From: a virus
Direction: 5' to 3' (one strand)
IMG/VR virus record: IMGVR_UViG_3300008050_000063
Location: 1-49,833 of that record
DNA length: 49,833 nucleotides
Shown here: positions 4,714-38,755 of the stretch, one piece after another
How the letters are laid out: every line of letters starts with the position of its first letter
How positions within the stretch are numbered: the first letter of the stretch is position 1
The notes under the pieces: model-generated
The model's database searches: none
Told to the model about the DNA's origin: nothing
The model's input: the letters and a program-made list of their open reading frames with translations, nothing else
Position numbers and translations under genes: made by a program

Positions 4714-5273
4714 AGAATATAGTACTGATTAATTATATTGATTTAGTTGGACAAGCATTATTGAATTTTTTAAATGGGAGTGATGTCCCTGAAAATGCTA
4801 AAGGAAAGTATTTCATAAATTTAAGTTCAAGTAATAAAAAACAACTTCAGTTCTATATGAACTCAATGTTGAAAAACAATTTATTTTTTGGGAAAAAAAC
4901 AATTATCATACATACATGTGATGTAGAAAATAATTGGAGAAATTCCTTAGGTGATTCCTGGAAATCTGTCAAATATAAAATAACAGATGACTCTGTATGG
5001 CTTGAACCTTCTGCAATGAATTGTTTTTTTGATAAAGAATTTAAGAGGATTGAAAAAGAGTTTAAGAAATGTTCATTCATTTCAACCCACGAAATAGATA
5101 GTTTTGATTTAAAATTTTATCTCAAACGTATTCTAGGTGTTGATTGTTTTAATGAAAAAGGGTACAATATAATTGAAGATGGAAATATTGTCTATGAAAG
5201 AAATAATTATTTCCCAGATTTTATATTGAATGATATAGAAGCAAAGTTACGTCACAACAACATAATAATATAG
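4710..5273 (+). CDS. Hypothetical protein, 187 aa, TTG start
   Basis: TTG at 4710 overlaps the resolvase stop (TTGA) and is preceded at the right distance by TAGGAGA (about 4694-4700), so the non-AUG start is well supported. Residues 1-110 look alpha/beta: IVLINYIDLVGQALLNFL, a phosphate-loop-free Rossmann-like start. KTIIIHTCDVENNWRNSLG and an acidic linker follow. No recognised domain. Genetically coupled to the resolvase, suggesting a linked role. Confidence 0.6.
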   Translation: MKNIVLINYIDLVGQALLNFLNGSDVPENAKGKYFINLSSSNKKQLQFYMNSMLKNNLFFGKKTIIIHTCDVENNWRNSLGDSWKSVKYKITDDSVWLEPSAMNCFFDKEFKRIEKEFKKCSFISTHEIDSFDLKFYLKRILGVDCFNEKGYNIIEDGNIVYERNNYFPDFILNDIEAKLRHNNIII

Positions 5274-5285
5274 GAGATTGAAAAA

Positions 5286-5759
5286 ATGTTTTTCAACAAC
5301 ACACTAATCGAAGTTAGTCACAGAGAAAAAGGATTCATGACAGCAAGTGCTGCAGAAATCGGAAAGGAGATGCACAATTTTCAAGCATTGTCTGTTTATC
5401 CGAAGATTGAACAAACCGGAAAGTATAGAGTAATTGTACCAAAGTTCAGTTATGTACCTTTTAGATCAGTTGACGTATTTTACGATTCGCAACAAGTAAT
5501 TGAATTAAGATATAGAGACAATTACTACGAAAAAGATGTCACACTTTTAGTCGATCCATACAACAAAGTCTACACTACAAATAAAGGATATATTTCAGCA
5601 GGTAATTTAGGTGCTACTGATGTTCTTTTAAGCAGTGAAGGTAGAGTCGCCAAAATCATATCAAAGGAAAGATTAAATGTTTATGGAGATTTTTCTAAAA
5701 TGGAGTTGAAATATGGGAATAATATCATGGCTAACGGGATTGTTGTCATACCGAAATAA
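5286..5759 (+). CDS. Hypothetical beta-rich protein, 157 aa
   Basis: ATG with SD ATAGGAGA. The chain is dominated by short beta strands (KYRVIVPKFSYVPF, VIELRYRDNYYEKDVTLLV) ending in GIVVIPK; no transmembrane segment or known motif. The sandwich-like pattern would suit a small virion or baseplate part, but this is inference. Tightly linked to the following gene (10 bases). Confidence 0.6.
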   Translation: MFFNNTLIEVSHREKGFMTASAAEIGKEMHNFQALSVYPKIEQTGKYRVIVPKFSYVPFRSVDVFYDSQQVIELRYRDNYYEKDVTLLVDPYNKVYTTNKGYISAGNLGATDVLLSSEGRVAKIISKERLNVYGDFSKMELKYGNNIMANGIVVIPK

Positions 5760-5769
5760 GGAAAAAAAA

Positions 5770-6285
5770 ATGGATTTTACAATATTATACGACGATAAAG
5801 GACCATCATTTACTTCTGGTTCCAATATACAAGAAATTTTCACAAGATTAGAATCTGCAGGAGAAGATTATGTTGAAGTAGTTCCTGGACATAAAAAAAT
5901 ACCATCGAACGCAGTTAAAAAATTTAATAGTGACCCTATGGCTGTGTTGTTGTCTCAAATACCAGACGACAAACCTGCACAAGCACCTATTACAATTCCA
6001 CATAAATCAGATAATGGTGCGCCTGCTGCAATAAAAGGTACAAACCCTTTCCCTGATAAAAAATGGGTACCGCCAGTCCAAGAAGAAAAAATTAAGACAA
6101 AATATTTTGAAGAAGATGGTATAAGTTTTAAATTGGTGGGAGATGTTCTATATAAGAAGAAATGGGTTGAAAATAAAGACGCAAGACTTATTAATAGAAA
6201 ATCTGGTAAGAGTTATTCTGGTGATAATTATATTGTCCAAACACAAAATTGGAAAGTTGTTTCAGGGGTTCCTGAAACAACTTAG
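5770..6285 (+). CDS. Hypothetical protein, 171 aa
   Basis: I chose ATG 5770 (MDFTILYDD) because it has the SD AAGGAAA and avoids overlap with the upstream gene; the frame is open to an ATG at 5713. The N-terminal half is a possible DNA/protein-binding segment (FTRLESAGEDYVEVVPGHKK). A Pro/Ala-rich linker follows, then a C-terminal basic module with GKSYSGDNYIVQTQNWKVV. No family recognised. Its last codons form a 12-bp hairpin, 6255-6282, that closes the transcription unit. Confidence 0.6.
   Translation: MDFTILYDDKGPSFTSGSNIQEIFTRLESAGEDYVEVVPGHKKIPSNAVKKFNSDPMAVLLSQIPDDKPAQAPITIPHKSDNGAPAAIKGTNPFPDKKWVPPVQEEKIKTKYFEEDGISFKLVGDVLYKKKWVENKDARLINRKSGKSYSGDNYIVQTQNWKVVSGVPETT
6255..6282 (+). 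terminator. 12-bp hairpin at the end of the left gene block
   Basis: AGTTGTTTCAGG (6255-6266) pairs perfectly with CCTGAAACAACT (6271-6282) around a GGTT loop, immediately before the TAG stop. No U-tract follows, so it is either a weak terminator or an mRNA 3'-end stabiliser. It separates the left block from the late fibre block. Confidence 0.5.
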
Positions 6286-6316
6286 TAAAAACTGCATAGT
6301 TAGTCTATTCTATTCC

Positions 6317-6324
6317 TATAAATA
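6317..6324 (+). promoter_or_regulatory. Late promoter TATAAATA for the fibre block
   Basis: Exact late box 20 bases before the ATG at 6344, with SD AAAGGA between. No other late box was seen on the + strand until 15866, so it may drive the whole adhesin block. Confidence 0.75.
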
Positions 6325-6343
6325 TTAAAAAAAGGATATTAAA

Positions 6344-9337
6344 ATGGGAATAGAAATAGACAATATTGTGCATATAACAGATGACCAGATAGCATCTGGT
6401 TATATCCTGCACACAACCCAAACTGAAAAAGACCTTTGGAATAAAAACGCTGTAAGTGGTGATAATTTAAAGATAAATTACAATCCAACTGAAGGTTATA
6501 CTCCTGCTTCAACTACAGTTTCTGGGCATTTATCTGGCATTAAAGACGCTTTAAACGATTTACAAATTGAACCTAACCCACCTGGGGATAGTTTAAGTAT
6601 AGCATATTCTCCAACAGAATATGATGAAACAGATTCAACAGTTTCTGGTAACTTAGATGGTATATCAAAAGAATTAGGCGAAATTAAAACAATTCAATCA
6701 ACTTCTCTAGACGGCCGCTCAGTCATTTATAATCCAGATGGATATACAACTACAGGTCAAACTCTTTCTGCAAATCTAGACGGCATAGGGAATGAATTGA
6801 AGGGCAATGCAACAGATATAGCAACACTTGCTGGATTATCTGCAGATATTGTCTGGGAACACGGTGTTGGAGCAGCATCAGGAACAATACAACCGAAAAT
6901 ATCTACAAATAAACTTTTACTACCATATCTACACGGAAATGTTAATTCAATACCAGTAACAAACAGTTCTGGGGAAATAATAGATTCTTGTTCTACACTT
7001 ATCCCTGGACCTTCAGGAAATGGTAGTGTTATTAATATAAACCATTTTGAAACTAATCCAGCAATAGCAGAATTATTACCTGGTGACATATGGCTTCAAA
7101 GTATCGGAACATCTGGATATGTTTGGAGATACTATAATGGAGTGAGTACACAAAATGTGCCTATCGCTGCTGGAGGTGGTGGAGGTGCTGTTAGTTGGGG
7201 AGATATACTAGGAACATTAGCAAACCAAACTGATCTACAAAACGAATTCGCGAATATAAAACAAGTACCTAGCGGTGGAACAATAAATCAAGTATTGTCT
7301 AAAGCATCAAGTAGTGATTTTGATACTGAATGGAGCGACGTTGCTGCAGCAACTGGATCAAGTTACTGGAGCAGAACATCTGGTGGAATAATTAGTCCTT
7401 CAGTTAGTGGAGATAAATTAGATGTACATGAAATAGAAACCTCTAAAATATTTTCCGAAAATGAACAATCTGCATATATTGAATTTGATGATGAAGTTAT
7501 TAGTATTTATTCTGATTGGAAAAATATGGTTCATATCGATGGAGAAAATGAAGAAGTTGTTTGGAATCCTCATGCGGATTCGGTTGCCCAGGATATTATA
7601 ATTAAAGCTCCTAGTGGTGCTGGTATGAAAGATACATATAGATTTGATTACAGTGCACTTGCTCATATATACAACGATAAGATATTTGCGAATAGTGGAC
7701 TTGTACTAAATACACAAACACTTACTGGGGTTACAATAGGTTCATCCAATAACGATAAAATACCAACACAAGGATATGTTGATGATGCAGTTGGTTTATT
7801 ATCTGGTGCGGAATGGTTTAATGGTGATATGATTGAGCTGGATTTTGTACCAGGTGTTGGATATACTCAAACAAATGAAAAATTATCTGGACACTTAGAC
7901 GGAATTGATAAAAGTTTAAATTCTCTATCAGCTGCTGTTGATAATATAACAGGTGGAACAGGAGGAGGTGGAGCATATATACCACTTACCGGATCAAGTG
8001 ATATTATCGGAAGTCTAATTCCTAAAAATACAGGATTAACTTTAGGAACATCTGGTAATCCATGGCAAGAAGGATATTTCACAAGTGGTAGTTTATTTTT
8101 AGATATTAACAAATTATCTACACAGAACAACAGACTTTATTTTAATGATGAAACTGTTATAGTTAGTGGTGATATTGCAGATTTAGAAAGTGTTTACTCA
8201 AATGTAAACAGTAATAGTGGAAAATGGGACGGAACATATACAACAGTTAGAGCTAATAGTGCTACTTGGGAATTTGGTTCAAAACAATCTTTACATAACG
8301 TATTTGTAGATTACAGTGTTACTCCTGGTGGAGGAGGATCAATTGATGATCCTATTGATACTGTAGCAAATGCATTAGTGTGGATAAATTCTCCAACTGG
8401 TGGTAATGACCCTACAAATTCACAAGCTTGGAAAATTATAACAGCGGCTGGTATAAGTTATGCTAATATTACATTACCTAACAATATAACTCTTGCAGGT
8501 GTTGGTATTACTTCTAAAATTGGTGGTACAATAACGACTGGAAATGATTGCTGTTTAGAATATATTAATTTTACAAAAAATCATCCAGGAACTGGTGGAT
8601 GTGTTAATGTCCAAGGTGCAAGATGTATTATTAGAGAATGTTTTTTCTCTGGTAATTATAACGGCAATTTGCATTATTGTATCTATACTAACAATATTTG
8701 TACTGTTTCTGATACTGCATTCAGACTTAATATTGAAAGTGCAGCTGCTGATGTTTATTGTATAGCACAGGATGGAACACAAACTTCAAGAATGAGGGAT
8801 ATAGGAATACTTGAAAATGATACATATCCAAATAAAATTAAAATAGCTAGGGTAATCTACAATGGTCATATATCAATCAGCGGAATTGGTTCTACAATAG
8901 CCGATAAGTGGTGTAATCTGATTAATGAAGGTACTAATGGTGGGTCAATAACTTTTCAAGATATTGTTAAAATTCCTACAGGTGGAACAGTAGGACAAGT
9001 AGTAACTAAAGCTTCAAGTGGAGAATATGATGTTGGATGGAGTGATCCTGGTGCTCAAACATTTATAGATTGTGCAGATACTCCTTCTGGATATGTTGGG
9101 AAAGGGAATGAACTTGTCAAAGTTAATGCAGCAGAAGACGCAATAGAATTCTCAGGAGTTACAATAGAAGATGCTCCTGCTGGTGGTTCGATGTTAGGTT
9201 TAGATATATACACAACAGAACCTACAGCTCCTACAGGAGAAGATAGTTTATATGCATATCACAAATCAGCAACTGTTGTAGAATTAATCATAACCAACGG
9301 TTCTGATATTTATACTGTGGAGTTAACAAAAAGATAA
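6344..9337 (+). CDS. Long tail-fibre/adhesin protein, 997 aa
   Basis: Contains four copies of a fibre repeat of the form Y.P..GYT......SGHL.GI...L, at about residues 45-77, 84-115, 122-153 and 495-530, separated by Gly/Ser-rich linkers. Residues about 650-860 form a beta-helix-like section (ITLPNNITLAGVGITSK, CCLEYINFTKNHPG), then another linker and a short C-terminal head. Known: such repeats occur in trimeric phage fibres. Inferred role: receptor recognition. First gene after a late promoter; the next ATG follows directly on its stop. Confidence 0.75.
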   Translation: MGIEIDNIVHITDDQIASGYILHTTQTEKDLWNKNAVSGDNLKINYNPTEGYTPASTTVSGHLSGIKDALNDLQIEPNPPGDSLSIAYSPTEYDETDSTVSGNLDGISKELGEIKTIQSTSLDGRSVIYNPDGYTTTGQTLSANLDGIGNELKGNATDIATLAGLSADIVWEHGVGAASGTIQPKISTNKLLLPYLHGNVNSIPVTNSSGEIIDSCSTLIPGPSGNGSVININHFETNPAIAELLPGDIWLQSIGTSGYVWRYYNGVSTQNVPIAAGGGGGAVSWGDILGTLANQTDLQNEFANIKQVPSGGTINQVLSKASSSDFDTEWSDVAAATGSSYWSRTSGGIISPSVSGDKLDVHEIETSKIFSENEQSAYIEFDDEVISIYSDWKNMVHIDGENEEVVWNPHADSVAQDIIIKAPSGAGMKDTYRFDYSALAHIYNDKIFANSGLVLNTQTLTGVTIGSSNNDKIPTQGYVDDAVGLLSGAEWFNGDMIELDFVPGVGYTQTNEKLSGHLDGIDKSLNSLSAAVDNITGGTGGGGAYIPLTGSSDIIGSLIPKNTGLTLGTSGNPWQEGYFTSGSLFLDINKLSTQNNRLYFNDETVIVSGDIADLESVYSNVNSNSGKWDGTYTTVRANSATWEFGSKQSLHNVFVDYSVTPGGGGSIDDPIDTVANALVWINSPTGGNDPTNSQAWKIITAAGISYANITLPNNITLAGVGITSKIGGTITTGNDCCLEYINFTKNHPGTGGCVNVQGARCIIRECFFSGNYNGNLHYCIYTNNICTVSDTAFRLNIESAAADVYCIAQDGTQTSRMRDIGILENDTYPNKIKIARVIYNGHISISGIGSTIADKWCNLINEGTNGGSITFQDIVKIPTGGTVGQVVTKASSGEYDVGWSDPGAQTFIDCADTPSGYVGKGNELVKVNAAEDAIEFSGVTIEDAPAGGSMLGLDIYTTEPTAPTGEDSLYAYHKSATVVELIITNGSDIYTVELTKR

Positions 9338-10051
9338 ATGAAACTTAAACTTAATACATATAAATTTAATATACATAACGGCACAATTATCCATAAAAAA
9401 ATAGGCAATTGGACAGCAAACAGCTCAACATTATCAGCTCTTGAAGCTGGTATGGTTGCGTATTGGAAAGCAGAAGATTTGACAGATTCTAAGGGTAGTC
9501 ACACGCTTACTAATAATAACTCTGTAACTTTCACAAGCGGAAAACATAATAATGCGTTTACGTTGAATGGCAGTAGTCAATATCTTAAAGCAGATGCTAG
9601 TAGCGATTGGGATATGGGAACAGGAGATTGGACTGTTGGTATTTGGGTAAAATGGGGTTCAGTCGTTAATGATACAGGGCTAATTGGGATGAGTGCTACT
9701 GATAGTCAATTTAATTTATCATATCATGCTGGATATTTACGCAATGGAACTATGTCTCTGTCTTGGTTATACACACCTACAGTTGGCTCTTATGTTAATA
9801 TAGTATGGAGTCGTATAGGTAATACAGCATCATGCTATGTTAACGGAACAAAACTAGCAAGTGATAGAGATGTCACAGGAATTAGTTTTGGGAGAAGCGA
9901 TACGTTTTTACAATTGGGTTACACATACCAATTTGGTAATTTATTCAACGGACAAATAGACGAAGTCCTAATAAACAAAGGACACGGAGCAACGCAGGCG
10001 GAAGTAACTGCATTATACAACGGTGGAACAGGAGCATTTTATACACCATGA
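9338..10051 (+). CDS. LamG/concanavalin-A-like fibre protein, 237 aa
   Basis: From about residue 36 it is a LamG-like jellyroll: GMVAYWKAEDLTDSKG, GKHNNAFTLNGSSQYLK, DWTVGIWVKWG, SCYVNGTKLAS and GQIDEVLINKGHGATQAEV follow in the family order. Known: these domains bind sugars. Inferred: a carbohydrate-binding distal fibre component. Begins right after the stop of the long fibre gene and overlaps the next gene by ATGA, so the three are translated together. Confidence 0.8.
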   Translation: MKLKLNTYKFNIHNGTIIHKKIGNWTANSSTLSALEAGMVAYWKAEDLTDSKGSHTLTNNNSVTFTSGKHNNAFTLNGSSQYLKADASSDWDMGTGDWTVGIWVKWGSVVNDTGLIGMSATDSQFNLSYHAGYLRNGTMSLSWLYTPTVGSYVNIVWSRIGNTASCYVNGTKLASDRDVTGISFGRSDTFLQLGYTYQFGNLFNGQIDEVLINKGHGATQAEVTALYNGGTGAFYTP

Positions 10052-10359
10052 TACACTTAGCAAAAAAATATAATCTCAACATTAAAGATATAGAATTTAA
10101 ACGAGTTTCAATGTGGTTCGGTATGGCGTCTTGGACTTTATTAACACCTAATACAGTATACCTTAATAAGGGGTATGATGATTGGGATATGATTGATGAA
10201 GTTGCGCATGAGTTGATACATAGAGAGCAATGTAAACGAGATGGGATATTTGTTTATTTGGTTTTGAAAACATTAGGTAGATTATTTTTTGACAGCAGTT
10301 ATGAAGCCGAGGCATACGCAGAACAAGAAAGAATTGACACATTAAAAAGGATAATATAA
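10048..10359 (+). CDS. Small HExxH metalloprotease-like protein, 103 aa
   Basis: VAHELIHREQ (H54-E55-L-I-H58) is a zinc-protease motif, and SYEAEAYA (E86, E88) about 28 residues on could give the third ligand, as in DUF4157-type gluzincins. No signal peptide. Its position within a fibre operon is unusual; possible roles are fibre maturation or trimming of a surface protein. The protein is small for an active peptidase, so an inactive or substrate-tethered form cannot be excluded. Confidence 0.65.
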   Translation: MIHLAKKYNLNIKDIEFKRVSMWFGMASWTLLTPNTVYLNKGYDDWDMIDEVAHELIHREQCKRDGIFVYLVLKTLGRLFFDSSYEAEAYAEQERIDTLKRII

Positions 10360-10360
10360 T

Positions 10361-11389
10361 ATGAGTACAGGACACACAAAAGAACACGGACTAGGGGAGA
10401 CAGACAATCACACAGCTGCAACTATGTCACAAATAAGTAATTTAATATCAGATGGTGAAATAACATTAACAGGAACAACAGTGGTTGATTGCTCAACAGC
10501 AGTTCAAACACATACAATGCCTGCTATAAGTACTACTAACAATGGTTACACTTATAGAATAGGTAAAACAGGTATAAATTGGCTACGTATTGATACTACT
10601 GGTAGTGATACTGTCGATTCTATAGCAGAAATTTATTTCTTTATGGATAACGAATATGCTACTTTTAGAGCAAATAACACCTCAAAGAATTGGGAAATAG
10701 TTGAAAAAGTAGAACCTAAACTATATGCTGAAAAACAAGTTACTTTAACCAACACAATGAGTAATGCTGATATACTTGCAACTATACGTTCACAACCGAG
10801 AAATCTAAGTGGTAATAATCTTATCTTTAATTTCGCTGATGGTACATACACATTAACAGAAGAGTTAGACTTTTCGGGTTTTCGAGGAGGTGTCTTATGG
10901 ATAAGAGGTAATACATCTGAAGATCATCTTACTTTGCATTCAGATCAAGCAGTTATACTAGACAGTTCAGCAACAGATATTAATACCATTTTAATGTATA
11001 ATATAACATCTACAATTTATGTACGTAACTTACATATAAAAACAAAAACGGATGTAGACCACAGAAGTTGTATTTACGTAAGGAATGTTAGTTATCTTCA
11101 TGCTATAGCTGGGTGCAGGTTTGAGTGTAACAGTAAGGCAAATGGTTATTGTCTTTATTTTTCATTATCTAATGCAATGGTAAGAGCTTGTTATACTGAT
11201 TCCAGTGAATACGGAATTTCTGCTTATATCAATTCTAATGTATCTTCATTAGGGAATGACACACTCACGGTTAATTCAGAATATGGGCTTACAGCAAGTG
11301 CAAACGCAACGATAGGTAAGAGTGGTTCACAACCGAGTGGGGATACAGCAGACGAAAACACTAGCTTCGGTGGAGTAATAAGAAATTAA
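10361..11389 (+). CDS. Beta-helix tail-fibre/tailspike-like protein, 342 aa
   Basis: The N-terminal part includes HGLGETDNHTAATMSQISNL, an attachment-like segment, then a beta domain to about 125. Residues 130-330 show the short hydrophobic rungs of a right-handed parallel beta-helix (YVRNLHIKTKTDVDHRSCIY, YLHAIAGCRFECNS, GYCLYFSLSNAMVRAC). Known: such helices form tailspikes that bind or cleave polysaccharide. No catalytic residues can be assigned. Part of the late fibre operon. Confidence 0.65.
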   Translation: MSTGHTKEHGLGETDNHTAATMSQISNLISDGEITLTGTTVVDCSTAVQTHTMPAISTTNNGYTYRIGKTGINWLRIDTTGSDTVDSIAEIYFFMDNEYATFRANNTSKNWEIVEKVEPKLYAEKQVTLTNTMSNADILATIRSQPRNLSGNNLIFNFADGTYTLTEELDFSGFRGGVLWIRGNTSEDHLTLHSDQAVILDSSATDINTILMYNITSTIYVRNLHIKTKTDVDHRSCIYVRNVSYLHAIAGCRFECNSKANGYCLYFSLSNAMVRACYTDSSEYGISAYINSNVSSLGNDTLTVNSEYGLTASANATIGKSGSQPSGDTADENTSFGGVIRN

Positions 11390-11406
11390 TATTAAAGGAA
11401 TAAAAT

Positions 11407-11778
11407 ATGAAAGTAATATACAAAAAAGCAGATGGTGAGATAGTAGATTTTATTGAAGGTGAAGTAAAAGGATTAAATCCTTTATTCGCTACAATGGAAT
11501 ATACAGGAGATGAATCAGAAACTAACATTAGTGAGGTTGATGATTCGTTGGCATTATCTAATATGACAAAATTATCTAAGTTAGCAGTATTAGAAGCGAT
11601 GGATGTACTTACAGCAGAGCGTACTAAATTTGATACGTTGATGACTGATGCTACGTTTAAAGAACGTTGGCAGGCTACTACAGAGCTTGATATGACTCAC
11701 CCATTAACAATTGCAGCATTAGCACAAGTTGGGTTCGATGTAAATGCAATTAAAAGAGAAATAATAAAAAATTCTTAA
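11407..11778 (+). CDS. Hypothetical fibre-operon protein, 123 aa
   Basis: SD TAAAGGAAT. A beta N-terminus (MKVIYKKADGEIVDFIEGE) is followed by a helical half (TKLSKLAVLEAMDVLTAERTK, MTHPLTIAALAQVGFDVNAI). No family recognised. Size and position between fibre genes are like tail-fibre assembly chaperones, but no motif proves it. Confidence 0.55.
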   Translation: MKVIYKKADGEIVDFIEGEVKGLNPLFATMEYTGDESETNISEVDDSLALSNMTKLSKLAVLEAMDVLTAERTKFDTLMTDATFKERWQATTELDMTHPLTIAALAQVGFDVNAIKREIIKNS

Positions 11779-11790
11779 TAAGGAAATTTT

Positions 11791-13485
11791 ATGAAAATAT
11801 TGATTAATAATGGAAGAGTAATGATCAAGGGTAGCACGATTCTTGGTAAAAACGATGAACCAGCTCCACCACCAATAATACCAACGTATGCACTCAGAGA
11901 TGTAGGTCCCGCTGGTGGATTAATTTGTTATATCAATCCAAATTATATAGCAGATGGGTGGAAATATTTAGAAGCATCTCAAGTTTCAGGTGGGCAATAT
12001 GAATGGAGTGATGTTGAAACTTTATTAGGTACTACTTCTAGTGATGTAGGTGAAGGTCTAGATAATACTTCTAAGATTTTAGGACAATCTGGTTATGATT
12101 CTGCTAATAGTGGAGCTTCAATTTGTAATGAGTGGGTCGAAAGAACATTTGATGATTGGTTCTTACCTTCGTTAGATGAACTTGAAATAATGTACGATGA
12201 ATTGCATGCACATGGTGTAGGAAACTTTCCTACAACAACTAGTTATTGGAGTTCTACAGAATCAGACGCAGGAAATAGTTTTAGATTTAGTTTTGGATCT
12301 AATTATTCAAATGCAAGAGGTAAGGATACACATTATTTTGCTAGACCTCTTCGTAGATTTACATATATTGACACATACAGAATAACATATAACGGAAATG
12401 AAAATACAGCAGGTTCTGTTCCTTCAGATACAACATATTATAATCGAGGGAGTGATGTAACTATAGCTGCAGGGACTGGTCTAATAAACAATACAGATGC
12501 CTTCATAGGATGGAATACTCGTTCTGATGGATTTGGAACTGATTATTCTGCTAGTAGTACTTTAGTTATAGGAGAAAACACTACTCTGTATGCAAAATAT
12601 GCATCTGCGACGATTGCGTTCCTACCTGATACTCAATCATATGTTCATTATAGTGAAGAAGTAATGACAGACCAAATAAATTATTTAGTATCTAATAAAT
12701 CTAGTTTAAACTTAGCATTTGTAGGTCATGAAGGTGATGTTGTTCAAGATAGTTCTGATTCATCTGAATGGGTATTCGCAAGAACTGAAATGACTAAATT
12801 AGGTACAGCATCTATACCATATTCAGTATTACCAGGAAATCATGATTATCTTGCTGCTGGTGTAAGAACTAACACAACATTTAATTCTTATTTCCCATTA
12901 TCTGTATTTCAAGGAATGGCTACTTATGAAGGTGCTTATAATACAGACAGTGATAATACATATCATATAGTTAGTATCAATGAAAATGATTTACTTGTTA
13001 TATCATTAGAATTTGGAGCAAGAGGTGCTGTATTAACTTGGGCTAATGGAATACTTGCTGCTAATAGCACAATTCCAGCCATTATTATTACACATGCGTA
13101 TATTGGTATTAATGGAGAACCTCTAGAAAGTGATGATAACCATGCTCCTAGTAATGGATATGGTTTAGGAACAGTTCCTGCTGATGTGAATGATGGTAGT
13201 GATATTTGGACAACCCTTGTGTATCCTAATAATAATGTTAAATTAGTTATGAGTGGACATGATGGCTCACCATCAGTTGGAGCTAAATTAAAAACATCAA
13301 CACATGCTGATGGAAGTACTGTTTATCAATTGTTAAGTAACTATCAATATTATGGTGATTACCCTGGATATTTAACTTTATTTAGATTTAATTCTAGTAA
13401 AGTATATTTTAGAACCTATTCACCTACATTGGAAGAATTTAAGGAAGATGATCAAAGTCAAGGTGAATGGAGCTGGACTTGGTAA
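11791..13485 (+). CDS. Fusion: DUF1566/Lcl domain + InlB-type repeat + calcineurin-like phosphoesterase
   Basis: 564 aa in three parts. Residues 30-190 match DUF1566 (DWFLPSLDELEIMY, SYWSSTES, FARPLRRF), a C-type-lectin-like fold. Residues 195-271 match an InlB/Flg_new repeat (YRITYNGNENTAGSVPS, FIGWNTRSDGFGTDYS, TTLYAKYA). Residues 273-560 are a metallophosphoesterase with FLPDTQ (D280), GHEGDVV (D316), LPGNHD (N350, H351), IITHAY (H435) and a late MSGHDG. Metal ligands look intact, except that the first motif is DTQ, where other branches of this superfamily have DxH. Inferred: a virion surface enzyme that removes phosphate-containing groups from host surface polymers. Confidence 0.75.
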   Translation: MKILINNGRVMIKGSTILGKNDEPAPPPIIPTYALRDVGPAGGLICYINPNYIADGWKYLEASQVSGGQYEWSDVETLLGTTSSDVGEGLDNTSKILGQSGYDSANSGASICNEWVERTFDDWFLPSLDELEIMYDELHAHGVGNFPTTTSYWSSTESDAGNSFRFSFGSNYSNARGKDTHYFARPLRRFTYIDTYRITYNGNENTAGSVPSDTTYYNRGSDVTIAAGTGLINNTDAFIGWNTRSDGFGTDYSASSTLVIGENTTLYAKYASATIAFLPDTQSYVHYSEEVMTDQINYLVSNKSSLNLAFVGHEGDVVQDSSDSSEWVFARTEMTKLGTASIPYSVLPGNHDYLAAGVRTNTTFNSYFPLSVFQGMATYEGAYNTDSDNTYHIVSINENDLLVISLEFGARGAVLTWANGILAANSTIPAIIITHAYIGINGEPLESDDNHAPSNGYGLGTVPADVNDGSDIWTTLVYPNNNVKLVMSGHDGSPSVGAKLKTSTHADGSTVYQLLSNYQYYGDYPGYLTLFRFNSSKVYFRTYSPTLEEFKEDDQSQGEWSWTW

Positions 13486-13513
13486 TAAATAACATAAACA
13501 AAGGCAACAACCA

Positions 13514-15583
13514 ATGAACAAAAATAGATTAATACTGTGTAATACTGAAGATGTAAGATTTAACATTTGCGATAATACAAGATTTATGGTAAAGAAAATA
13601 GGTCAATATGATTACACAAATATAAGTGGGTTGGTTGGTTGGTTTGACGGCAATGATTCATCGTACATGGAATTTGATGAAGATGAAAGACTTGCGGTTT
13701 GGAAAGACAAAAGTAATTCAAGAAATGATTTAATACAACCTGTAGCATCAAGAAGACCTTACTATAAAGGAACAATAAATGATTTAAACAATTGTTATGT
13801 TGGAGAACCTGATGATGAAATAGGTGTTAGAACTGAGGCACCAGATATCTGGATGTACAATAAAGGAAAAGGATTTGATTTCACTGATAGACAAATCAAT
13901 TTCTTTGTGGTTGTTACTGTTTCAGAATTTGAAGATGTCTGGAAAACAATACTTTCACTTCAATGGTATAATCAAGGTCTTAGTGTTATGTTAGAAGGTA
14001 CTGAATGGCACACATATCAGAAAAGTTCAAAGGATTATATTTGGGGAGAATCTCCTTTAATTGATAATGGATCTGAAGATAGAAAAGTTCTACTTACATA
14101 CAGTTCTGAAAATATAGCAACCGGCACTGCTACTCTGGAAATTAATTTTCTTGAAGATCAAATCACAATTGCTGGAACACCTATACAAAATGTATATGGA
14201 AGATTGTATCTCAACTCAACAGAAATTGCTTCTTGGTGTGGTGGTTTTATTTATCATGAATTAGTATTTTTCAATAGAATTTTAGAACACCACGAAAAAA
14301 TATTAGTTCAAGGAACTCTTGCGTGGAAATGGCATTTGGAATATAAATTACCAGATGGGCATCCATATAAATATGTGTACAATATAACACCTCCTGTCCC
14401 ACCGCCTACAGTTCCTGGATTTAGTTCAACATGGAAAACTAACAATACTGGATCATCTAATGACAACCAAATTATGTTACCGTTGACAAATACAGGAACA
14501 TATAACTTTGTAGTTGAATGGGGAGACGGTTCTTCAGATACAATAACTTCATATACACAACCAGAAGTAATTCATACTTATTCAACACCAGGTACTTACA
14601 ACGTAACAATGAATGGTGTAATTACTGGATTTAGATTTAATAACGGTGGAGATGCTGAAAAAATTATAGATATATCTGAATTTTTAGCATTAACAATTAT
14701 AGACAATGCTGCATTTTATGGATGTGCTAATTTAAACATATCTGCTACTGATGCTCCTACTATTGCCGGTGGAGATTTAAGTTATATGTTTAGAGGTTGT
14801 TCATTACTTACAAATATTAATCCAGACGAATGGGACACAAGCAGTGTTACTAATATGAGTTATATGTTTAACAGTTGTTCAAAATTTAATCAACAAGTTA
14901 GTTCACTAAACACAAGTAATGTAATTGATATGAGTAATATGTTCTACAGTTGTTTATTATTTAACCAATCATTGTCATTTGATACAGCAAAAGTTGAAAA
15001 TATGGCAGCAATGTTTAGAAACTGTTATGTTTTCAATCAACCATTATCATTTGATACAAGTAGTGTTGAGGATATGGGAGGAATGTTTCATACTTGTTGG
15101 GAATTTAACCAACCATTGTCATTTGACACAAGCAGTGTTGAGGATATGGAGAGTATGTTTTATAATTGTAATGAATTTAATCAAGCTCTTACTTTCAATA
15201 CTGTTAATGTGATTGATATGAGTAATATGTTCTATAGTTGTACTTCATTTAACCAACCGATAAATTTCAATACGATAAATGTTACTAATATGGAAAATAT
15301 GTTTACTGCGTGTTTTACATTTAGACAAGATTTGGGAGGTCTTAATATCACCTCTTTAACTAATGCAGCAGAGATGCTTAGACCTTGTAACATTGATAGA
15401 GAAAATTATGATAAATTATTAATCGGATGGGCAGCCCAAACAGAACAACCGAATGTTACTCTTAATGTAAATAATTTGACTAATTATAGTGCTGGAGCAC
15501 CAGCAACAGCAAGAGCATCGTTAGTTGCAAACGGATGGACAATAACAGATGATGGACCATGGGGAACGTACGGATCGTACTAA
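13514..15583 (+). CDS. ConA-like + PKD-like + BspA/DUF285 repeat adhesin, 689 aa
   Basis: Residues 35-290 look like a ConA-type jellyroll (GLVGWFDGNDSSY, HELVFFNRILEHHEKIL). A Pro-rich linker follows, then a PKD-like domain (VEWGDGSSDTITSY, HTYSTPGTYNV). From about 430 come DUF285/BspA leucine-rich-type repeats with the signature F.Q.LSFDTS.V.DM..MF..C, about eight copies. The C-terminal cap (ATARASLVANGWTITDDG) is shared with the proteins at 23523 and 24657. Known: BspA-type repeats mediate adhesion. Inferred: a receptor-binding fibre tip. Confidence 0.8.
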   Translation: MNKNRLILCNTEDVRFNICDNTRFMVKKIGQYDYTNISGLVGWFDGNDSSYMEFDEDERLAVWKDKSNSRNDLIQPVASRRPYYKGTINDLNNCYVGEPDDEIGVRTEAPDIWMYNKGKGFDFTDRQINFFVVVTVSEFEDVWKTILSLQWYNQGLSVMLEGTEWHTYQKSSKDYIWGESPLIDNGSEDRKVLLTYSSENIATGTATLEINFLEDQITIAGTPIQNVYGRLYLNSTEIASWCGGFIYHELVFFNRILEHHEKILVQGTLAWKWHLEYKLPDGHPYKYVYNITPPVPPPTVPGFSSTWKTNNTGSSNDNQIMLPLTNTGTYNFVVEWGDGSSDTITSYTQPEVIHTYSTPGTYNVTMNGVITGFRFNNGGDAEKIIDISEFLALTIIDNAAFYGCANLNISATDAPTIAGGDLSYMFRGCSLLTNINPDEWDTSSVTNMSYMFNSCSKFNQQVSSLNTSNVIDMSNMFYSCLLFNQSLSFDTAKVENMAAMFRNCYVFNQPLSFDTSSVEDMGGMFHTCWEFNQPLSFDTSSVEDMESMFYNCNEFNQALTFNTVNVIDMSNMFYSCTSFNQPINFNTINVTNMENMFTACFTFRQDLGGLNITSLTNAAEMLRPCNIDRENYDKLLIGWAAQTEQPNVTLNVNNLTNYSAGAPATARASLVANGWTITDDGPWGTYGSY

Positions 15584-15608
15584 TATACAAATAATATAGG
15601 ACAATAAT

Positions 15609-15866
15609 ATGACTACTAAATTTAATAAATTATGTGAAGAACTCATAAAAGGTGGCAAAGCTGACGATATGACCTCACAAGACATTGCTGATAAGCATAA
15701 TGTAGGTGTAGAAGATATCGAAAAGCAGATAAATATCGGGGTTAAAATTGAGTTTGAACATACTACTGATACAAATGTTGCTAGAGAAATAGCAATGGAC
15801 CATTTGATGGAATTTCCTGATTACTACGATAGACTTATATCAATGGAGAAAGACGCAGAGAAATAA
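15609..15866 (+). CDS. DUF5661-like small protein, 85 aa
   Basis: The segment IGVKIEFEHTTDTNVAREI plus AMDHLMEFPDYYDRL matches the small DUF5661-type phage/bacterial proteins I recall (ELEHT ... ALDHL.E.PDYY). Function unknown. The N-terminus KFNKLCEE resembles that of the 95-aa zinc-ribbon protein and includes L-C-E, a possible prohead-protease site. Last gene of the + fibre block; it converges with the - strand block nine bases later, with no obvious terminator between. Confidence 0.65.
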   Translation: MTTKFNKLCEELIKGGKADDMTSQDIADKHNVGVEDIEKQINIGVKIEFEHTTDTNVAREIAMDHLMEFPDYYDRLISMEKDAEK

Positions 15867-15875
15867 ACAAGCTGA

Positions 15876-16385
15876 TTATAAAACTAATTCCATAGTTTCA
15901 ATTTCTACATATTTTTCAGCATTTTCTAGAAGTTCTAAATCTTCAGTAGAACTACCAAATAACTTCAATGCGTAATAAATTCGTTGTCTAGGACTCCATT
16001 TCATTCCTAACAATTCCAATGCATCATCAAGTATTATATTTGTTTCTTCCCAAGTAAAATGATTTGTTCTGACAAGAGCGTCATGTAGTAAGAATGCTCT
16101 AAAGAATTTTCCGGTAGGTGTTGCGTTAATAACTGGAACTATCATATTTTTAAAACTACCACCATCGGTTACAAAACCTTTTTTAATTACAATTTTAACA
16201 CAAATATTTTTGGGAATATGTAATGCTTTCTTAGTTTTCTTACTTATATAATATGATAGTTCTTCTTGATTTAGTTTCCAATTAGGTTTACCATTGAAAT
16301 TCTTTTCCCATTCGACAGGACCACCTAATTGTATTATTTCTAAATCACCATGATAAAATGTACTATTTTCTTTGATATAGTTCAT
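15876..16385 (-). CDS. DUF1353-family protein, about 169 aa
   Basis: Residues about 70-150 show the DUF1353 pattern: KGFVTDGGSFKN, a PTGKFFRAFLLHDALVR segment with the conserved HD, and WSPRQRIYYALKLFGS. Function of this phage family is unproven; a role in lysis or cell-wall processing has been suggested by context. ATG 16385 is my choice; the frame extends to a TTG at 16436. Neither has a strong SD and both overlap the membrane-protein gene, so translation is probably coupled to it. Paired with a holin-like membrane protein. Confidence 0.65.
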   Translation of the reverse strand: MNYIKENSTFYHGDLEIIQLGGPVEWEKNFNGKPNWKLNQEELSYYISKKTKKALHIPKNICVKIVIKKGFVTDGGSFKNMIVPVINATPTGKFFRAFLLHDALVRTNHFTWEETNIILDDALELLGMKWSPRQRIYYALKLFGSSTEDLELLENAEKYVEIETMELVL

Positions 16386-16902: not shown

Positions 16903-18714
16903 TTATCTTAAAAATCTAGCAATCGTTGTCGTGAAATGACTTACTATAATATCTTCATTCGTTTTATCTACTTGTAATACAATTTGTATAGTATCGTTTG
17001 TTTCAAGTTCTAATACATTTGTACCACTTATACCAAATGCTTCTCCTGCAGTTTTACAATATATTCCCATTTTTTGTGTTGCTAATATTTCACATTCTGT
17101 CCATGTACCTGTAGCATCATTAGCAACATATGCTGCATTAATATCAAAAGTGTCTGTTGTGACTCCACTAACAGTGAATAATCCATTATAATTAGTTGTA
17201 CCTACAATTTCAACACAATCATCGTTTGATAAACCATGACCAGTACTTGTTATCGTTGTGTTAGTTCCACTAGACATTGCGGTTATAGAGACAGGTGTAC
17301 TATTAGTCGAACATTTAGAAATACAAATGTGAGGAGTAGTACCATTAGAATCACTTTTAACTAGTGCATGATAATCTATCTCAAATTTTTCTGTTAAAGT
17401 TCCATCGTATCGTATCCTATCAGTCACAAAACTGAAATTAGTAAGATCGTTAGTAAAACTTCCAGCAATAGGGTACCAATTATTATTAATTTTACATGTT
17501 GTAGTTGTTGCAGTATTTAGATAAGCATATACACCAGCTAAATTTTGGAACCTGTTAAATTCACTCAGTGTCAAGTGTTGATAATCTCCAGTATTTAATC
17601 CTGCTAAACCATTATGTGACACACTTGAAGATGACGAACCACTAGATTGATATTTCCTTAAATCTACATAAACTTCTGTATTACCGTCATCCTCAAGAGT
17701 TCCATTTCTTTTGTAGATATACGCGAATTGAAATTGACACTCGGAAGATGATAAGCCTTCAAGATATAATGTATCAACATTCTTAAATAAAGCATTTCTA
17801 GCAGTGTTTCTATTAGGGTAAGCATGCTGCCCTACAACTTTAACTCGTCCTGGTTCACCATCTAAATTTGTTTCTAATATATAACCTATAACAAAGTCTG
17901 TAGAAGATGCACAATCTGTCAATTTCCAAATAGAACCATTCCACTCATTCCACACGGCGTTTGATCCGTTCATTAGTGCAATAGCGTTATCTGCTGTGTT
18001 ACTATGCAATTTCCAGCCACCAGTTGTCCCATCACGATACATGAATTTTAATGCTGTGCTTGTTGGTGTAGCTTTGATAATATCTTCATCATGATATACT
18101 CCAGTACTAATATTAGTAAATGTAGTAGAACCATCAGCTAATCCTGTTATATCACCACCGTGTGAATTTCTAAACTTTAAAGTCATGTGAGTTAAAAGGT
18201 GATCTGCAGAGTCCATAATGATACCATGAAACTCATCTTTAGCTAGCCATACAGTTCCTTCTTCTTTGTTATAGTATACTAATCCACAAATTGCAGATAC
18301 AAGGAAAATATCCTCAGTCATTGCGGAATTTTCAATAAATTGTAGTACCCCAGAAGTATCATAGTAAAAATAGTATGTGCCTGTAGTGTTTGTAAATGTT
18401 ATTGATTGAGTGGTTGTTTTTGAGTATTTTATACCACCAGCCCAGAAATAAAATTCCAATTCTCCACCTTTAACTGAATGTGAGAACGTTTGAGTACTCG
18501 CAACTGCTGATACTTCCCCTTTAGTATTTGGGTTTAATCTATTAAATCCTCTAGTATTAATATTTTTACTAGTAAATGACCCACCTAGTTGAACATTATC
18601 CCCACTAGTAGAAGGAGTTAAAGTATCACCTGCCTTTTCCCATAAAGATAAAGTTCTAGCATCATCGAGTTCAACTCCTGTACTTATATCTATTAAACCT
18701 CTTAATTTACCCAT
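16903..18714 (-). CDS. Tail-fibre/baseplate-type protein with swapped N-terminal tag, 603 aa
   Basis: Opens with MGKLRGLIDISTGVELDDA, the same 19 residues that begin the 100-aa protein at 22037. The rest is a chain of beta modules: a TYYFYYDTSGVLQFI region, HGGDITGLADGSTTF, a Ser-rich hinge (SSGSSSSSVSHNGLAGL) followed by GDYQHLTLSEFNRFQNL, and a C-terminal domain with STGHGLSNDDCVEIVG and ATQKMGIYCK. The hinge segment (HNGLAGL..GDYQHLT) is a common phage-fibre motif. Inferred: fibre attached through the short N-terminal tag. SD AAAAAGGACAT. Confidence 0.65.
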   Translation of the reverse strand: MGKLRGLIDISTGVELDDARTLSLWEKAGDTLTPSTSGDNVQLGGSFTSKNINTRGFNRLNPNTKGEVSAVASTQTFSHSVKGGELEFYFWAGGIKYSKTTTQSITFTNTTGTYYFYYDTSGVLQFIENSAMTEDIFLVSAICGLVYYNKEEGTVWLAKDEFHGIIMDSADHLLTHMTLKFRNSHGGDITGLADGSTTFTNISTGVYHDEDIIKATPTSTALKFMYRDGTTGGWKLHSNTADNAIALMNGSNAVWNEWNGSIWKLTDCASSTDFVIGYILETNLDGEPGRVKVVGQHAYPNRNTARNALFKNVDTLYLEGLSSSECQFQFAYIYKRNGTLEDDGNTEVYVDLRKYQSSGSSSSSVSHNGLAGLNTGDYQHLTLSEFNRFQNLAGVYAYLNTATTTTCKINNNWYPIAGSFTNDLTNFSFVTDRIRYDGTLTEKFEIDYHALVKSDSNGTTPHICISKCSTNSTPVSITAMSSGTNTTITSTGHGLSNDDCVEIVGTTNYNGLFTVSGVTTDTFDINAAYVANDATGTWTECEILATQKMGIYCKTAGEAFGISGTNVLELETNDTIQIVLQVDKTNEDIIVSHFTTTIARFLR

Positions 18715-18721
18715 TATTTAA
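18657..18721 (-). repeat. N-terminal tag repeat, copy 1
   Basis: About 65 bp nearly identical (about 3 differences) to 22282-22346, covering codons 1-19 and the stretch just before the ATG. A recombination seam that would allow different bodies to be joined to one tag. Confidence 0.75.
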
Positions 18722-18729
18722 TGTCCTTT

Positions 18730-21700
18730 TTAAATTAATATCATATTATTTGTTGCTAGTTGTGTTGATAATTTCCCATCAAGTATAACTGATTCTGTTC
18801 CTGTTTGAATATGAGTTAATTCAACATTACCAGTAGGCATAAACACTCCTGCTGTACAACTAGAATCTATATCCAGCATCCCACCATCGAAGTGGGTTAA
18901 TGCGCTTGATGTCACACTAGTACTATTAATAAACTTCAATAATCCTCCGAAGTTATAAGTATGTAAATGGCTTCCTGCTGCAGCGAAATCAAATACAATA
19001 TCAGTATCAAGTTGAGATTTACAGTTATATAACATTAATTCATTTGTACCGTTTAGTGTTATATTCGTGGTAGACATAAACTTACAGTCATTCATTACAC
19101 CATATAGATTGGTTATATTCACAATACGACAATTAAAGTATAGACCTAATCCATTGTTTGCGCCATAAACTTTTAATTCTGTGAATCTAGTGGCCATACA
19201 CAACTGTCCGTTTAAATCGACCTTTCCATTTCTCCAAGATTTAAACTCATAACCACTGACATTTCTATCAAGTGTTAATGTTCCAGCTAGATGGATTAAA
19301 CTTCTATTATTTGCAACACAAATGGCTAGAGCATCCTCTAGATTATTAACAGGTCTATGGCGTCCACCATTAAGGTTACCTGTACCACTATAAGATGAGG
19401 ATACATCTAAGTATATTCCATTATCAAATACTTGTGACTGTACCAAGCTACCAAAGCTATTATCAGAGTATGTGAGTGTCGCCAATACATCCCACACCGC
19501 ATTTGGACTCCAGTTTGCCATTTCTAGCATCAGCATAGATGGCATTGCATTATCCCAACAACTGAAGTCTGTCATCATGTTTGTTCCTGCGTTGATATCA
19601 GACATATACACACTACTTAACCCATCCTCTGAATATATTTGCATTCTCACACCCGCTCTGGAGTTATATGTTTTTGTAGTCGTAGCTTTTAAAGCACCTG
19701 AAGTCCATGAAGGGATAGGTCCAAAAACTTCAATATTATCTATTGGGTCTACATCGCCAAACAGTTTCAGTTCTCCTTTCATAAACGAATCTGCATGTGC
19801 TGATGTGTGTAACCATTGACCATAAAGGTAGACATCTCCACCAGCTTTTTCAGGGACTTGGAAATCCCAGTATAAAGACATTCCAGCATTAGGTGTGAAC
19901 TTAACACAATTCTTATTTGTTGGACTTTCTGTATTGTCAGATAAATCTGCACCAATGGAGTTTTTCCCTGTCTTTTCAATAGTTCCACTAGGTAGATAAT
20001 TTATTACATTCTCAGCACCATTTGTATATTGGAATCCTATACGTGTATCTAGTGCAGAAGTTTCTAAAGACACATCATAAAATATAGCATCTTTATCTGC
20101 GATAATAGCAGGTAGGATATTACAATTAATGTAAGAAAACTCGGCTAAATATGTTGTAGATATACGAATCAAATTTTCAGTATCGCCTATGCCTGATAAT
20201 ATCATATCCATACCTGTTATAACGTTATCAAGCGAATCCCCTTGCACGTACCATAAACGTCCGTCAACAGCAGATATTTGACCACCATTGAACCTGTTTC
20301 CATGAGCATTTTGAAGAGCAATACCATAATAACTACTATGTGGTTGGTCACTACAACGTAAGTTATTGAATATACATTTATTGGTTGTTATGACCCTCAT
20401 GAAATATGCATTGGAGAAAACTATTCTCATATTATTGAAAGTACAAGCTGTTGTACCATTTAATGACATACCATAAGACCCCGTTTGGTCACTACTATTG
20501 AGATTATATCCTACAATATTATCAAATGTACATCCCGTACAATTGAAATATACTGCTTCTTCCCAGGATTTATTAATAAAAAGACCGTTAGTATATATTG
20601 AGTCTTTGCTTGATAAAAAATATACCGCTGAGTCACTTCTACCATCCATATGATTATCTATTATTTCAACACCCTGTAAAGCACTATTACCGCTGTTATT
20701 ATCATTGTAAAAATAACAGTGAAAATAATTAGTAGCGCCTTGGAACTTAATGTTTTTAGAGCAATTAATCGCAAGACAAGTCTCGCCATTAATATCAGAA
20801 TAATCTGTACCACTTAACCCACTCTCAATACCACCTACTGTATCCGATAATGTAAATGAAGTTGAACTATTAATCGTTCTGATATACTTTAGTGCTGATT
20901 CGTTATTATTGTGGGACTCAATTACTATTGGATCATTAACATCCCAATTATCTGACGCATCTGTAATAACCAATGGACTTGCTGTAGTGCCTACACCACT
21001 GATAATAATAGATTCTTGTATATCATCGTTATCATGGGCATTTAAACCCCACAATCTAACTGTCTGTCTACGAAGAGCATATAATCCTCCATATTCATCT
21101 GTAGTATTTGTAAAATTAAATGTAACAGTATTTCCGTCAGCAAGTGGATTCGCTTCACTCCCCACCCATATTCTACCCTCGTTAACATTATAAAGGAATC
21201 CTGACATTGTAACTGTTCTTGATGCTGTACTTGGGAAATCTAATGTTCCGCTATTCTGTAAAGAATGCAATAGCCCTTGGTCTTGTGACCTAGGACTGTT
21301 TACTGTAGCAATACCTGCTAATGTAATATCAGCATCAATAGTTAAGTGATGGAAATTATATAACTGGTCAGAGCTTGTAATTGCAACATCTCTATCGTCA
21401 ACAACTATCTGAGCGATTCCTCCACTAGTGTCTTGACCTACGCTGTGAGTGGCGTTGATTCTTTTGACAGAAAATCTATAATAATCTGCTGTAGTTGTAG
21501 TATAATCGTAATTTATACCTTCCATATACAGCCAGAAATGTTCATCCGACGAAGATACTAACTGTTCGTGTGTCCACGTTGCTTCTGTTCCTACGTCATT
21601 CCAAGTAGCACCATCATATTCTTGTAACATTACAGCCAGTCCACTGTTTCGTGTAGTGGCTGTTGCTGTTAAATACAGAGCTACCCCAAGACACCTATTA

Positions 21701-22036: not shown

Positions 22037-22339
22037 TTATGAATATACTATACCAGTGATATTTCCGCTAGTATATGTATATGTCTTCGTTAAATCTATT
22101 CCGTCAGGGGTAGCACCACTAAGTACAATACTTGTCAAATTACCGCTTGTATAATTCAAAGTCTTTGTAATACCGTCAGCATATACAACACTTGTAAGAA
22201 CACCACTTGTGTAATTATATGTAGCATTTGACGATACAATATTGCTATTTACTGTTTCAAAACTCGATAAAGTTAATGAATTAGCATCATCGAGTTCAAC
22301 TCCTGTACTTATATCTATTAAACCTCTTAATTTGCCCAT
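22037..22339 (-). CDS. Short fibre-like protein sharing the N-terminal tag, 100 aa
   Basis: Codons 1-19 duplicate those of the 603-aa protein. The body is a run of beta repeats, YNYTSGVLTSVVYADG, LNYTSGNLTSIVLSG and YTYTSGNITGIVYS, resembling RHS/YD-like or fibre repeats. Too short to be a full fibre, so either a cap subunit or what is left after recombination replaced a longer body. SD AAAAGGAGTT. Confidence 0.6.
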   Translation of the reverse strand: MGKLRGLIDISTGVELDDANSLTLSSFETVNSNIVSSNATYNYTSGVLTSVVYADGITKTLNYTSGNLTSIVLSGATPDGIDLTKTYTYTSGNITGIVYS

Positions 22340-22346
22340 AATTTAA
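22282..22346 (-). repeat. N-terminal tag repeat, copy 2
   Basis: Partner of 18657-18721; same orientation, separated by 3.6 kb that contain the 1044-aa and 53-aa genes. Recombination between the copies would delete those genes and fuse the tag to the 603-aa body. Confidence 0.75.
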
Positions 22347-22354
22347 AACTCCTT

Positions 22355-22816
22355 TTAAAACCAACCATTAGCTTCCATCTCAGCTCTAGTTCTTTTATTT
22401 TGTTCACTATCTTGTAGTTTCTGTAATAGCATATTTTTAATATCTCCATCAGGTATTGAATTAAAAACCAATACTTGATAAGGTGTAGCCCAATAACCAC
22501 TAACTGGATGTTGTATTGGCTTCAATTTTATTTTGTCTGATATTGACATTATTAAATCACATACTTGCTGTGCTTCCTCTTCAGTATCATAATTAATATG
22601 CCATAATATTTCATAAGGTTCACCAACTATTTCATCTTCGTTTCCAATAGTATATTCACTGTAAAATAGATCACAAACTTCTTCCCAACTATCACCAATC
22701 AACATAAAAGTCTGTCCACTTGATGTAACTGTCTTTTCGATATTATGAATATTTACTACTAAATCTCTACCATTAGAAATTATTAAATATTTGTCTTCTT
22801 TCTTGACTTCTTGCAT
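22355..22816 (-). CDS. Hypothetical protein, 153 aa
   Basis: Beta-rich N-terminus (KYLIISNGRDLVVNIHNI), then SGYWATPYQVLVFNSIPDG and a helical tail ending NKRTRAEMEANGWF. The C-terminus DGDIKNMLLQKLQDS looks like a coiled coil. No recognised family; within a fibre operon it may be an assembly factor. Late promoter at 22842-22849 lies 26 bases upstream; SD AAGGAAA. Confidence 0.55.
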   Translation of the reverse strand: MQEVKKEDKYLIISNGRDLVVNIHNIEKTVTSSGQTFMLIGDSWEEVCDLFYSEYTIGNEDEIVGEPYEILWHINYDTEEEAQQVCDLIMSISDKIKLKPIQHPVSGYWATPYQVLVFNSIPDGDIKNMLLQKLQDSEQNKRTRAEMEANGWF

Positions 22817-29600: not shown

Positions 29601-29602
29601 TT
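29584..29602. repeat. 19-bp direct repeat at HNH cassette border, left copy
   Basis: GTTCCTCCTCCGAGAATTT, identical to 30481-30499 in the same orientation. The pair bounds an 897-bp unit holding the HNH gene and the replacement gene ending. Confidence 0.85.
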
Positions 29603-38737: not shown

Positions 38738-38755
38738 ATTTATATTTATTTATAA
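38738..38755 (-). promoter_or_regulatory. Tandem late promoters for the protease gene
   Basis: Two TATTTATA boxes (+ strand) at 38738-38745 and 38748-38755, ten bases apart, about one helical turn, so they lie on the same DNA face. Confidence 0.65.

Follow-up and report, generated by a model that had tools for sequence, protein, structure and literature searches.

The phage tail enzymes known to act on host coats are mostly glycosidases, lyases, and deacetylases or esterases. A phosphodiesterase in such a position is also on record: enterococcal phages have tail-associated GDPD lysins in which the phosphodiesterase lies in the tail module, in one case together with a BppU baseplate domain, and these lysins are predicted to cut the phosphodiester bonds of wall teichoic acid (PMC10194240). 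Among cellular proteins, Bacillus subtilis YvnB, renamed ShfP, is placed in a vast radiation of cell-surface calcineurin-like phosphoesterases that are fused to adhesion and carbohydrate-binding domains. ShfP sets free extracellular glycerol, with lipoteichoic acid as the suggested source, and its function is impaired by changing D927, D963, NHD997-999, H1080, or H1114/H1116 (PMC11488536).

Here we describe a phage gene that joins a phosphoesterase domain, apparently of the ShfP/YvnB-like type, to a lectin-like domain. The GDPD lysins have another fold and belong to another family (PF03009), whereas this protein combines a calcineurin-like fold with a lectin-like partner. A tail-borne phosphodiesterase is thus already known in the GDPD fold; the calcineurin fold and the ShfP-type family appear to be new in that role, and our searches of the open-access PMC literature turned up no paper that places a ShfP/YvnB-type phosphoesterase in a fibre of a phage.

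A metallophosphoesterase gene in a fibre-like operon

The stretch of DNA that we analysed (the window; 49,833 bases) is the IMG/VR virus record IMGVR_UViG_3300008050_000063, which has no end repeats. Three of its proteins, namely the terminase, the major head protein, and the portal, fall into T4-like phage families, and it further encodes a tail-sheath stabilizer and a head-tail adaptor. The terminase and major head protein are 30-36% identical to those of isolated T4-like phages, and the best matches of the terminase (33-36% identity) come from phages of several hosts. This record covers part of a divergent T4-like phage genome. A second contig of 13.7 kb (L012) encodes a portal 100% identical to that of the window, which indicates that the same virus gave more than one assembled contig. 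The gene of interest and its surroundings are laid out as follows.

6344-9337, plus strand: fibre-like protein of 997 aa with repeated segments, the probable main fibre; only phrog_22680, a family of unknown function, matches
9338-10051, plus strand: Laminin_G_3 (concanavalin-type) protein of 237 aa, with matches to phage virion and baseplate families
10048-10359, plus strand: HELIH-containing zincin-like protein of 103 aa, a member of the fibre-like operon that matches phrog_87 (metallo-protease, E 0.0023)
10361-11389, plus strand: protein of 342 aa that by eye resembles a beta-helix, with no Pfam match at E 0.1 and a weak one to phrog_18190
11407-11778, plus strand: protein of 123 aa with no known family, ending 12 nt before gene 11791-13485
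11780-11784, plus strand: AAGGA, a likely ribosome-binding site read from the sequence
11791-13485, plus strand: lectin-like, Flg_new, and metallophosphoesterase (MPP) protein of 564 aa, from the ORF list, family searches, and a model
11791-11886, plus strand: N-terminal segment and Pro-rich linker (residues 1-32), a possible docking segment
11887-12360, plus strand: Lcl_C/DUF1566 domain (phrog_4245; residues 33-190), C-type-lectin-like by family
12376-12597, plus strand: Flg_new, or Listeria-Bacteroides (InlB-type), repeat (residues 196-269), a likely spacer
12607-13482, plus strand: calcineurin-like phosphoesterase of the DxQ, ShfP/YvnB-like type (residues 273-564), with D280, Q282, D316, N350, H351, H435, and H490
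13514-15583, plus strand: PKD and DUF285 (PARCEL-type repeat) protein of 689 aa, 28 nt past gene 11791-13485

Gene 11791-13485 is a single uninterrupted frame with an ATG start, and it sits in a same-strand run of genes whose gaps are mostly short. We consider "fibre operon" a fair label for this run, partly inferred since the single family matched by the 997-aa protein has no known function. The G+C contents at the three codon positions are similar in the N-terminal (0.43/0.48/0.15) and C-terminal (0.44/0.42/0.12) halves, as expected of one gene.

An earlier note on this DNA had called the combination of domains unusual for a fibre operon. In agreement with this, a tblastn search of 50,697 phage records returned no whole-protein match, and megablast of positions 5200-16000 against phages returned no match. 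At E 1e-5, the only MPP matches in the same 50,697 records were three faecal contigs named "Bacteriophage sp." (MT835827, MT837443, and MT836095; our L002, L003, and L004). We rejected these as phage evidence, as their genes look bacterial: when the ORFs were read without a family search, two of the records contained SusC/SusD-type, hexosaminidase-type, or glutamate-dehydrogenase-type genes, and the remaining one contained a secreted multi-domain protein and a transporter-like gene. The three records are poor evidence for phage genes.

Several other features of the contig are recorded here as separate observations. The PKD and DUF285 (PARCEL-type) protein at 13514-15583 (plus strand) is one of three, the others lying at 23523-24644 and 24657-25619 (both minus strand); they are 35-43% identical in pairs, and the two minus-strand genes have a common 79-bp 3' end (91% identical). 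Each copy of a 93-bp direct repeat (87%; 18642-18734 and 22267-22359) holds a gene start. The two genes that start there are 87.5% identical over their first 24 residues and differ in the rest, which, judging from the sequence, suggests that modules were swapped behind a docking segment common to both. Two HNH/NUMOD3 homing-endonuclease-like genes at 29678-30403 (plus strand) and 38750-39499 (minus strand) are related (42%); one of them is found between 118-bp, 75% identical direct repeats (29485-29602 and 30382-30499) that lie in the flanking minus-strand genes.

Domains of the 564-residue protein

The earlier note had proposed lectin-like, InlB-type, and metallophosphoesterase parts, and family searches recovered all three, as Lcl_C, Flg_new, and Metallophos in Pfam, with phrog_4245 in addition. 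Chance is excluded by the E-values of these matches and by the resemblance to an independent viral protein (L013, described below), which is 54% identical over 535 residues. Residues 1-32 contain no signal-peptide-like stretch (hydrophobicity of 1.14 against a threshold of 2.0 in a crude test). A common N-terminal docking segment was looked for but did not emerge: in a BLAST comparison of 45-residue N termini, the best and only match covered 12 residues, at E 0.30, and was to the MPP gene of another viral contig (L014).

The first domain matches phrog_4245 over residues 34-191 (E 1.7e-26) and Pfam Lcl_C over residues 104-188 (E 8.5e-6), the latter with 26.5 bits, under the curated 34.9. It also matches the solved protein HbP1 (8q4e; E 1.9e-7) and a Porphyromonas phage protein annotated as "DUF1566 C-type lectin fold protein," which, unlike the window protein, has no phosphoesterase annotated beside it. 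Another phage, on viral contig L101, has a homologous Lcl_C domain within a tail fibre of the collagen type. The AF2 model of the domain has a pLDDT of 44.9, too low to use, and the term "lectin-like" therefore rests on family membership. The Flg_new repeat that follows scores above the Pfam cut-off over residues 196-269 (E 3.9e-7).

DUF1566 is described as a common target of diversity-generating retroelements (DGRs), and this includes homologous domains in Bacteroides phages (PMC4159848, PMC8143477). The lectin-like domain could accordingly serve as a DGR target through which receptor binding is varied, the MPP being a passenger. We found no template-repeat-like copy in the window, where the gene's first 590 bases have no other match longer than 17 bases, and no reverse-transcriptase-like ORF in the window fragment by a YxDD check or among the families matched. 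DGR variable regions are usually at the C terminus, and the domain is internal in the window protein. These observations make the DGR reading highly improbable.

The third domain matches Pfam Metallophos over residues 275-491 (E 4.6e-6; 27.6 bits against a curated 21.5). An AF2 model built from 32 rows was confident over residues 271-564, with block means of 80-98 and pLDDT mostly above 90. When this model was compared with solved structures by VIA-align, the same fold was found in Lmo2642 (2xmo; Z 23.0, rmsd 3.1, 247 aligned), GpdQ (3d03; Z 21.9, rmsd 2.7, 222 aligned), and purple acid phosphatases (Z about 21; 21.3 for the human enzyme), at sequence identities of 11-17%, and also in the Plasmodium anchor GAP50 (3tgh; Z 20.3). 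Foldseek against viral models returned distant MPPs, for the most part exonucleases and unnamed phage proteins of large size. The profile score above the cut-off and the predicted fold place the domain in the calcineurin-like phosphoesterase superfamily (PF00149); sharing the modelled fold does not prove activity.

All metal ligands that the earlier note had named (D280, D316, N350, H351, H435, and the histidine of a late SGH, H490) are present. Two canonical positions that it had passed over differ. The canonical motif is given as DxH-GD-GNH[DE]-H-GHxH (PMC4320098), and the window reads DTQ-GD-GNHD-H-GHDG, with Q282 turning DxH into DxQ and GHDG in place of GHxH. Assignment to the class III phosphodiesterases (Rv0805/GpdQ-like) was rejected on the same two motifs, DxH and GHxH, the other motifs being present.

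To place these differences, we aligned the MPP domain with 89 related rows: 79 genome contigs (80 were fetched, and L062 was left out for a stop), 7 plasmid-borne copies, and the 3 faecal contigs. D280, Q282, D316, N350, H351, and H435 are conserved in 100% of the rows and H490 in 99%; as PDTQ was part of the search pattern that yielded 79 of the 89 rows, positions 280-282 are unbiased only in the other 10, in which the conservation of D280 and Q282 also holds. A glutamine occupies column 282 in all 89 rows, and a histidine stands in the aligned second-histidine column in just 5. DxQ and GHDG are therefore family traits and not signs of decay.

ShfP-type relatives in bacteria and phages

Among the closest cellular proteins are some that are secreted or lie at the surface and contain S-layer, cadherin-like, or LamG parts, and surface-type MPPs matched by tblastn include a Paenibacillus S-layer protein (E 3e-25) and a Bacillus badius protein (E 3e-20). 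We compared the window with ShfP through the published residue numbers of ShfP and through shared relatives. The D-D-N spacings of 36 and 34 in the window equal those of ShfP, and two S-layer relatives (L007 and L010) equal ShfP at all four spacings (36, 34, 83, and 34); the DxQ-type MPP of the window is homologous to these relatives. The catalytic D, D, NHD, H, and H of ShfP correspond to D280, D316, N350-H351-D352, H435, and H490, and in both proteins the MPP is joined to adhesion or carbohydrate-binding domains (PMC11488536). By sequence and ligand spacing, the window MPP belongs to the ShfP/YvnB-like type.

The two proteins also differ. The window lacks the equivalent of H1116, the second histidine of GHxH; absent from most of the 89 relatives, this residue does not define the wider ShfP-like radiation. 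It has 21 extra residues between H435 and H490, its partners are Lcl_C and Flg_new, and it lies in a phage fibre-like operon. Of 78 cellular MPP ORFs, 38 had a hydrophobic N terminus in the same crude hydrophobicity test, compared with 53 of the 322 other ORFs at the same loci (Fisher p 1.4e-8); the test detected no such stretch in the window protein or in its viral relatives L013 and L014. With neither a signal peptide nor a membrane or surface anchor, the window protein has a ShfP-type domain but is not a ShfP. The absence of a leader is as expected for a phage structural protein.

The earlier note had suggested a search for the same architecture in other phages, and the search succeeded. 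A whole-protein scan of viral contigs gave no match; a scan with a reduced alignment (A2) gave L013 to L016, and rescans with alignment A3, the L014 protein, and alignment A9 added only L110. There are thus at least five MPP relatives in viral contigs besides the window, in scans that start from short degenerate patterns. The L013 protein (1058 aa) has all three domains fused behind a right-handed beta-helix. Its upstream neighbour (75-1826) is a putative polysaccharide-deacetylase-like protein (PF15421, below cut-off), and its downstream neighbour is a collagen/tailspike-family protein. L014 has the split form, in which an Lcl_C gene (186 aa) and an MPP gene (347 aa) adjoin with 14 bases between them. 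This pair is flanked by two collagen-like fibre genes, the upstream one judged by eye, and a SASA carbohydrate esterase gene (10650-11480) follows. Fibre blocks with MPP relatives thus gather surface-polymer enzymes, namely the esterase in L014 and the deacetylase-like protein in L013. The lectin-like part and the enzyme travel together yet are separable, given the split form in L014 and the beta-helix form in L013, and such separability is expected of modular host-recognition proteins.

Neither the terminase nor the major head protein of the window was found in L013 to L016. On the 73-kb L014 contig there are genes for a tail sheath and for a protein of baseplate type, and this contig has an RtcB relative in common with the window (42.6%), where the RtcB-type tRNA/RNA ligase gene lies at 33367-34647 (minus strand). 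In L015, a free MPP lies between the terminase and portal genes of an unrelated phage of 50% G+C. L110 has a free MPP with a Tat-like leader, recognized by eye, two genes past a protein with a marginal tail-fibre family match (E 0.018). L016, which by eye resembles a large virus of eukaryotes, encodes a distant ShfP-like MPP with an N-terminal hydrophobic leader at 7920-9158.

In a tree of 94 rows, the window, L013, and L014 form a clade with support of 100/100. Its stem measures 1.25 changes per column, and the clade lies a long way from any cellular row and apart from all 89 non-viral rows. From these sequences, the phage domain would be an old capture from bacterial cell-surface proteins that several phages have retained. 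The tree also bears on the origin of the gene in the contig. Contamination or chimeric assembly, with a bacterial surface gene joined into a viral contig, would account for nearest cellular relatives that are bacterial secreted proteins. It is at odds with the phage terminase, major head protein, and portal on the same contig, with the base composition of the gene, which agrees with that of its neighbours, and with relatives on two independent viral contigs that fall with the window in the fully supported clade. We regard contamination as exceedingly improbable; it and the DGR reading are largely excluded.

All seven family catalytic positions are retained in the window, L013, L014, and L015. 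Three other positions are near-invariant in the family, G523 (92%), G524 (97%), and R529 (98%), and all three are lost in the window, L013, and L014, which have D/N, Y/D, and T/L/V there; L015 and L016 keep G, G, and R. Judging from the alignment, the pocket may be altered in this phage trio, or activity may be lost. If activity were lost, the MPP would be a binding-only module, a rigid receptor-binding or structural head without catalysis. Such a use of the fold has a parallel among the structural matches, as GAP50 is an MPP-fold protein with no known enzyme activity. We nevertheless consider a binding-only module quite unlikely: all metal and catalytic family positions are kept in three diverged phage copies (L013 and L014 are 60% and 56% identical to the window), which is not expected if catalysis has been dispensable since their common ancestor.

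Proposed role at the host surface

From the gene, its domains, the modelled enzyme fold, the kept catalytic residues, and the recurrence in two viral contigs, which the analysis shows, we infer a location in the virion, an activity, a substrate, and an order of events. On balance, the protein is probably an enzyme associated with the fibre or tailspike, which would attach to a surface glycan and cleave phosphoester bonds at that site. It would carry no signal peptide and would be built into the virion as an accessory enzyme of the fibre/tailspike apparatus. The lectin-like domain would grip a glycan of the host surface, with the Flg_new repeat as a spacer, and the MPP, captured long ago from bacterial cell-surface proteins, would use its metal centre to cut a phosphoester or phosphodiester in a surface polymer. 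Candidate polymers are teichoic-type polymers and phosphorylated capsule or LPS, and cleavage might expose the receptor or clear a path.

The short-gap, same-strand operon with a LamG virion-type protein and the beta-helix fusion in L013 are consistent with placement in the fibre. The site-1 ligands depart from the canonical motif, which counts against the proposed role, as does the outcome of the comparison of N termini, in which no common docking segment emerged. The earlier note had imagined a virion phosphoesterase that strips phosphate from LPS or from teichoic-like or phosphonate-bearing polymers. Nothing supports its phosphonate part, and the calcineurin-like fold is not known to cleave the C-P bond of phosphonates. 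We favour a surface-acting enzyme, given that ShfP is described as a surface phosphoesterase (PMC11488536) and that the phage module is fused to adhesion-type domains.

Phages may also use such enzymes off the virion. A protein that acts inside the cell or is released at lysis could scavenge phosphate, clear polymer for the next round, or counter nucleotide-signalling defence, and phage calcineurin-like phosphoesterases are listed as auxiliary metabolic genes (PMC11267871, PMC10196503) and as counter-defence or repair enzymes (PMC7824862). The free-standing copies in L014, L015, and L110 would fit this alternative. For the window protein we consider it unlikely, since the enzyme is fused to adhesion-type domains in the window and L013, in the latter to a beta-helix too, within fibre-like operons, since the hydrophobic leader found in about half of the cellular relatives is missing, and since the ShfP family is described as extracellular and not as nucleotide signalling (PMC11488536). 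The free-standing MPPs and the Tat-like leader of L110 do suggest that some phage copies may be exported and not virion-bound.

Beyond the fibre-associated enzyme itself, we put forward a more specific and tentative idea, which may well prove wrong: that T4-like phages have remade ShfP-type phosphoesterases of the bacterial cell surface as lectin-guided heads of fibres or tailspikes, which cut host polymers linked by phosphodiesters, with the pocket, in which G523, G524, and R529 are lost, retuned to a different substrate. If true, these proteins would be a new catalytic class among phage enzymes for surface polymers and a calcineurin-fold counterpart of glycosidase and lyase tailspikes and of the GDPD tail lysins. 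The short genes lend themselves to direct expression and testing. Joined to a lectin-like domain, a calcineurin-fold enzyme would extend the means of phages against LPS, teichoic-type polymers, or capsules that contain phosphate. It would also help to identify what the large ShfP-like surface family acts on and would explain host-range steps in uncultured T4-like phages.
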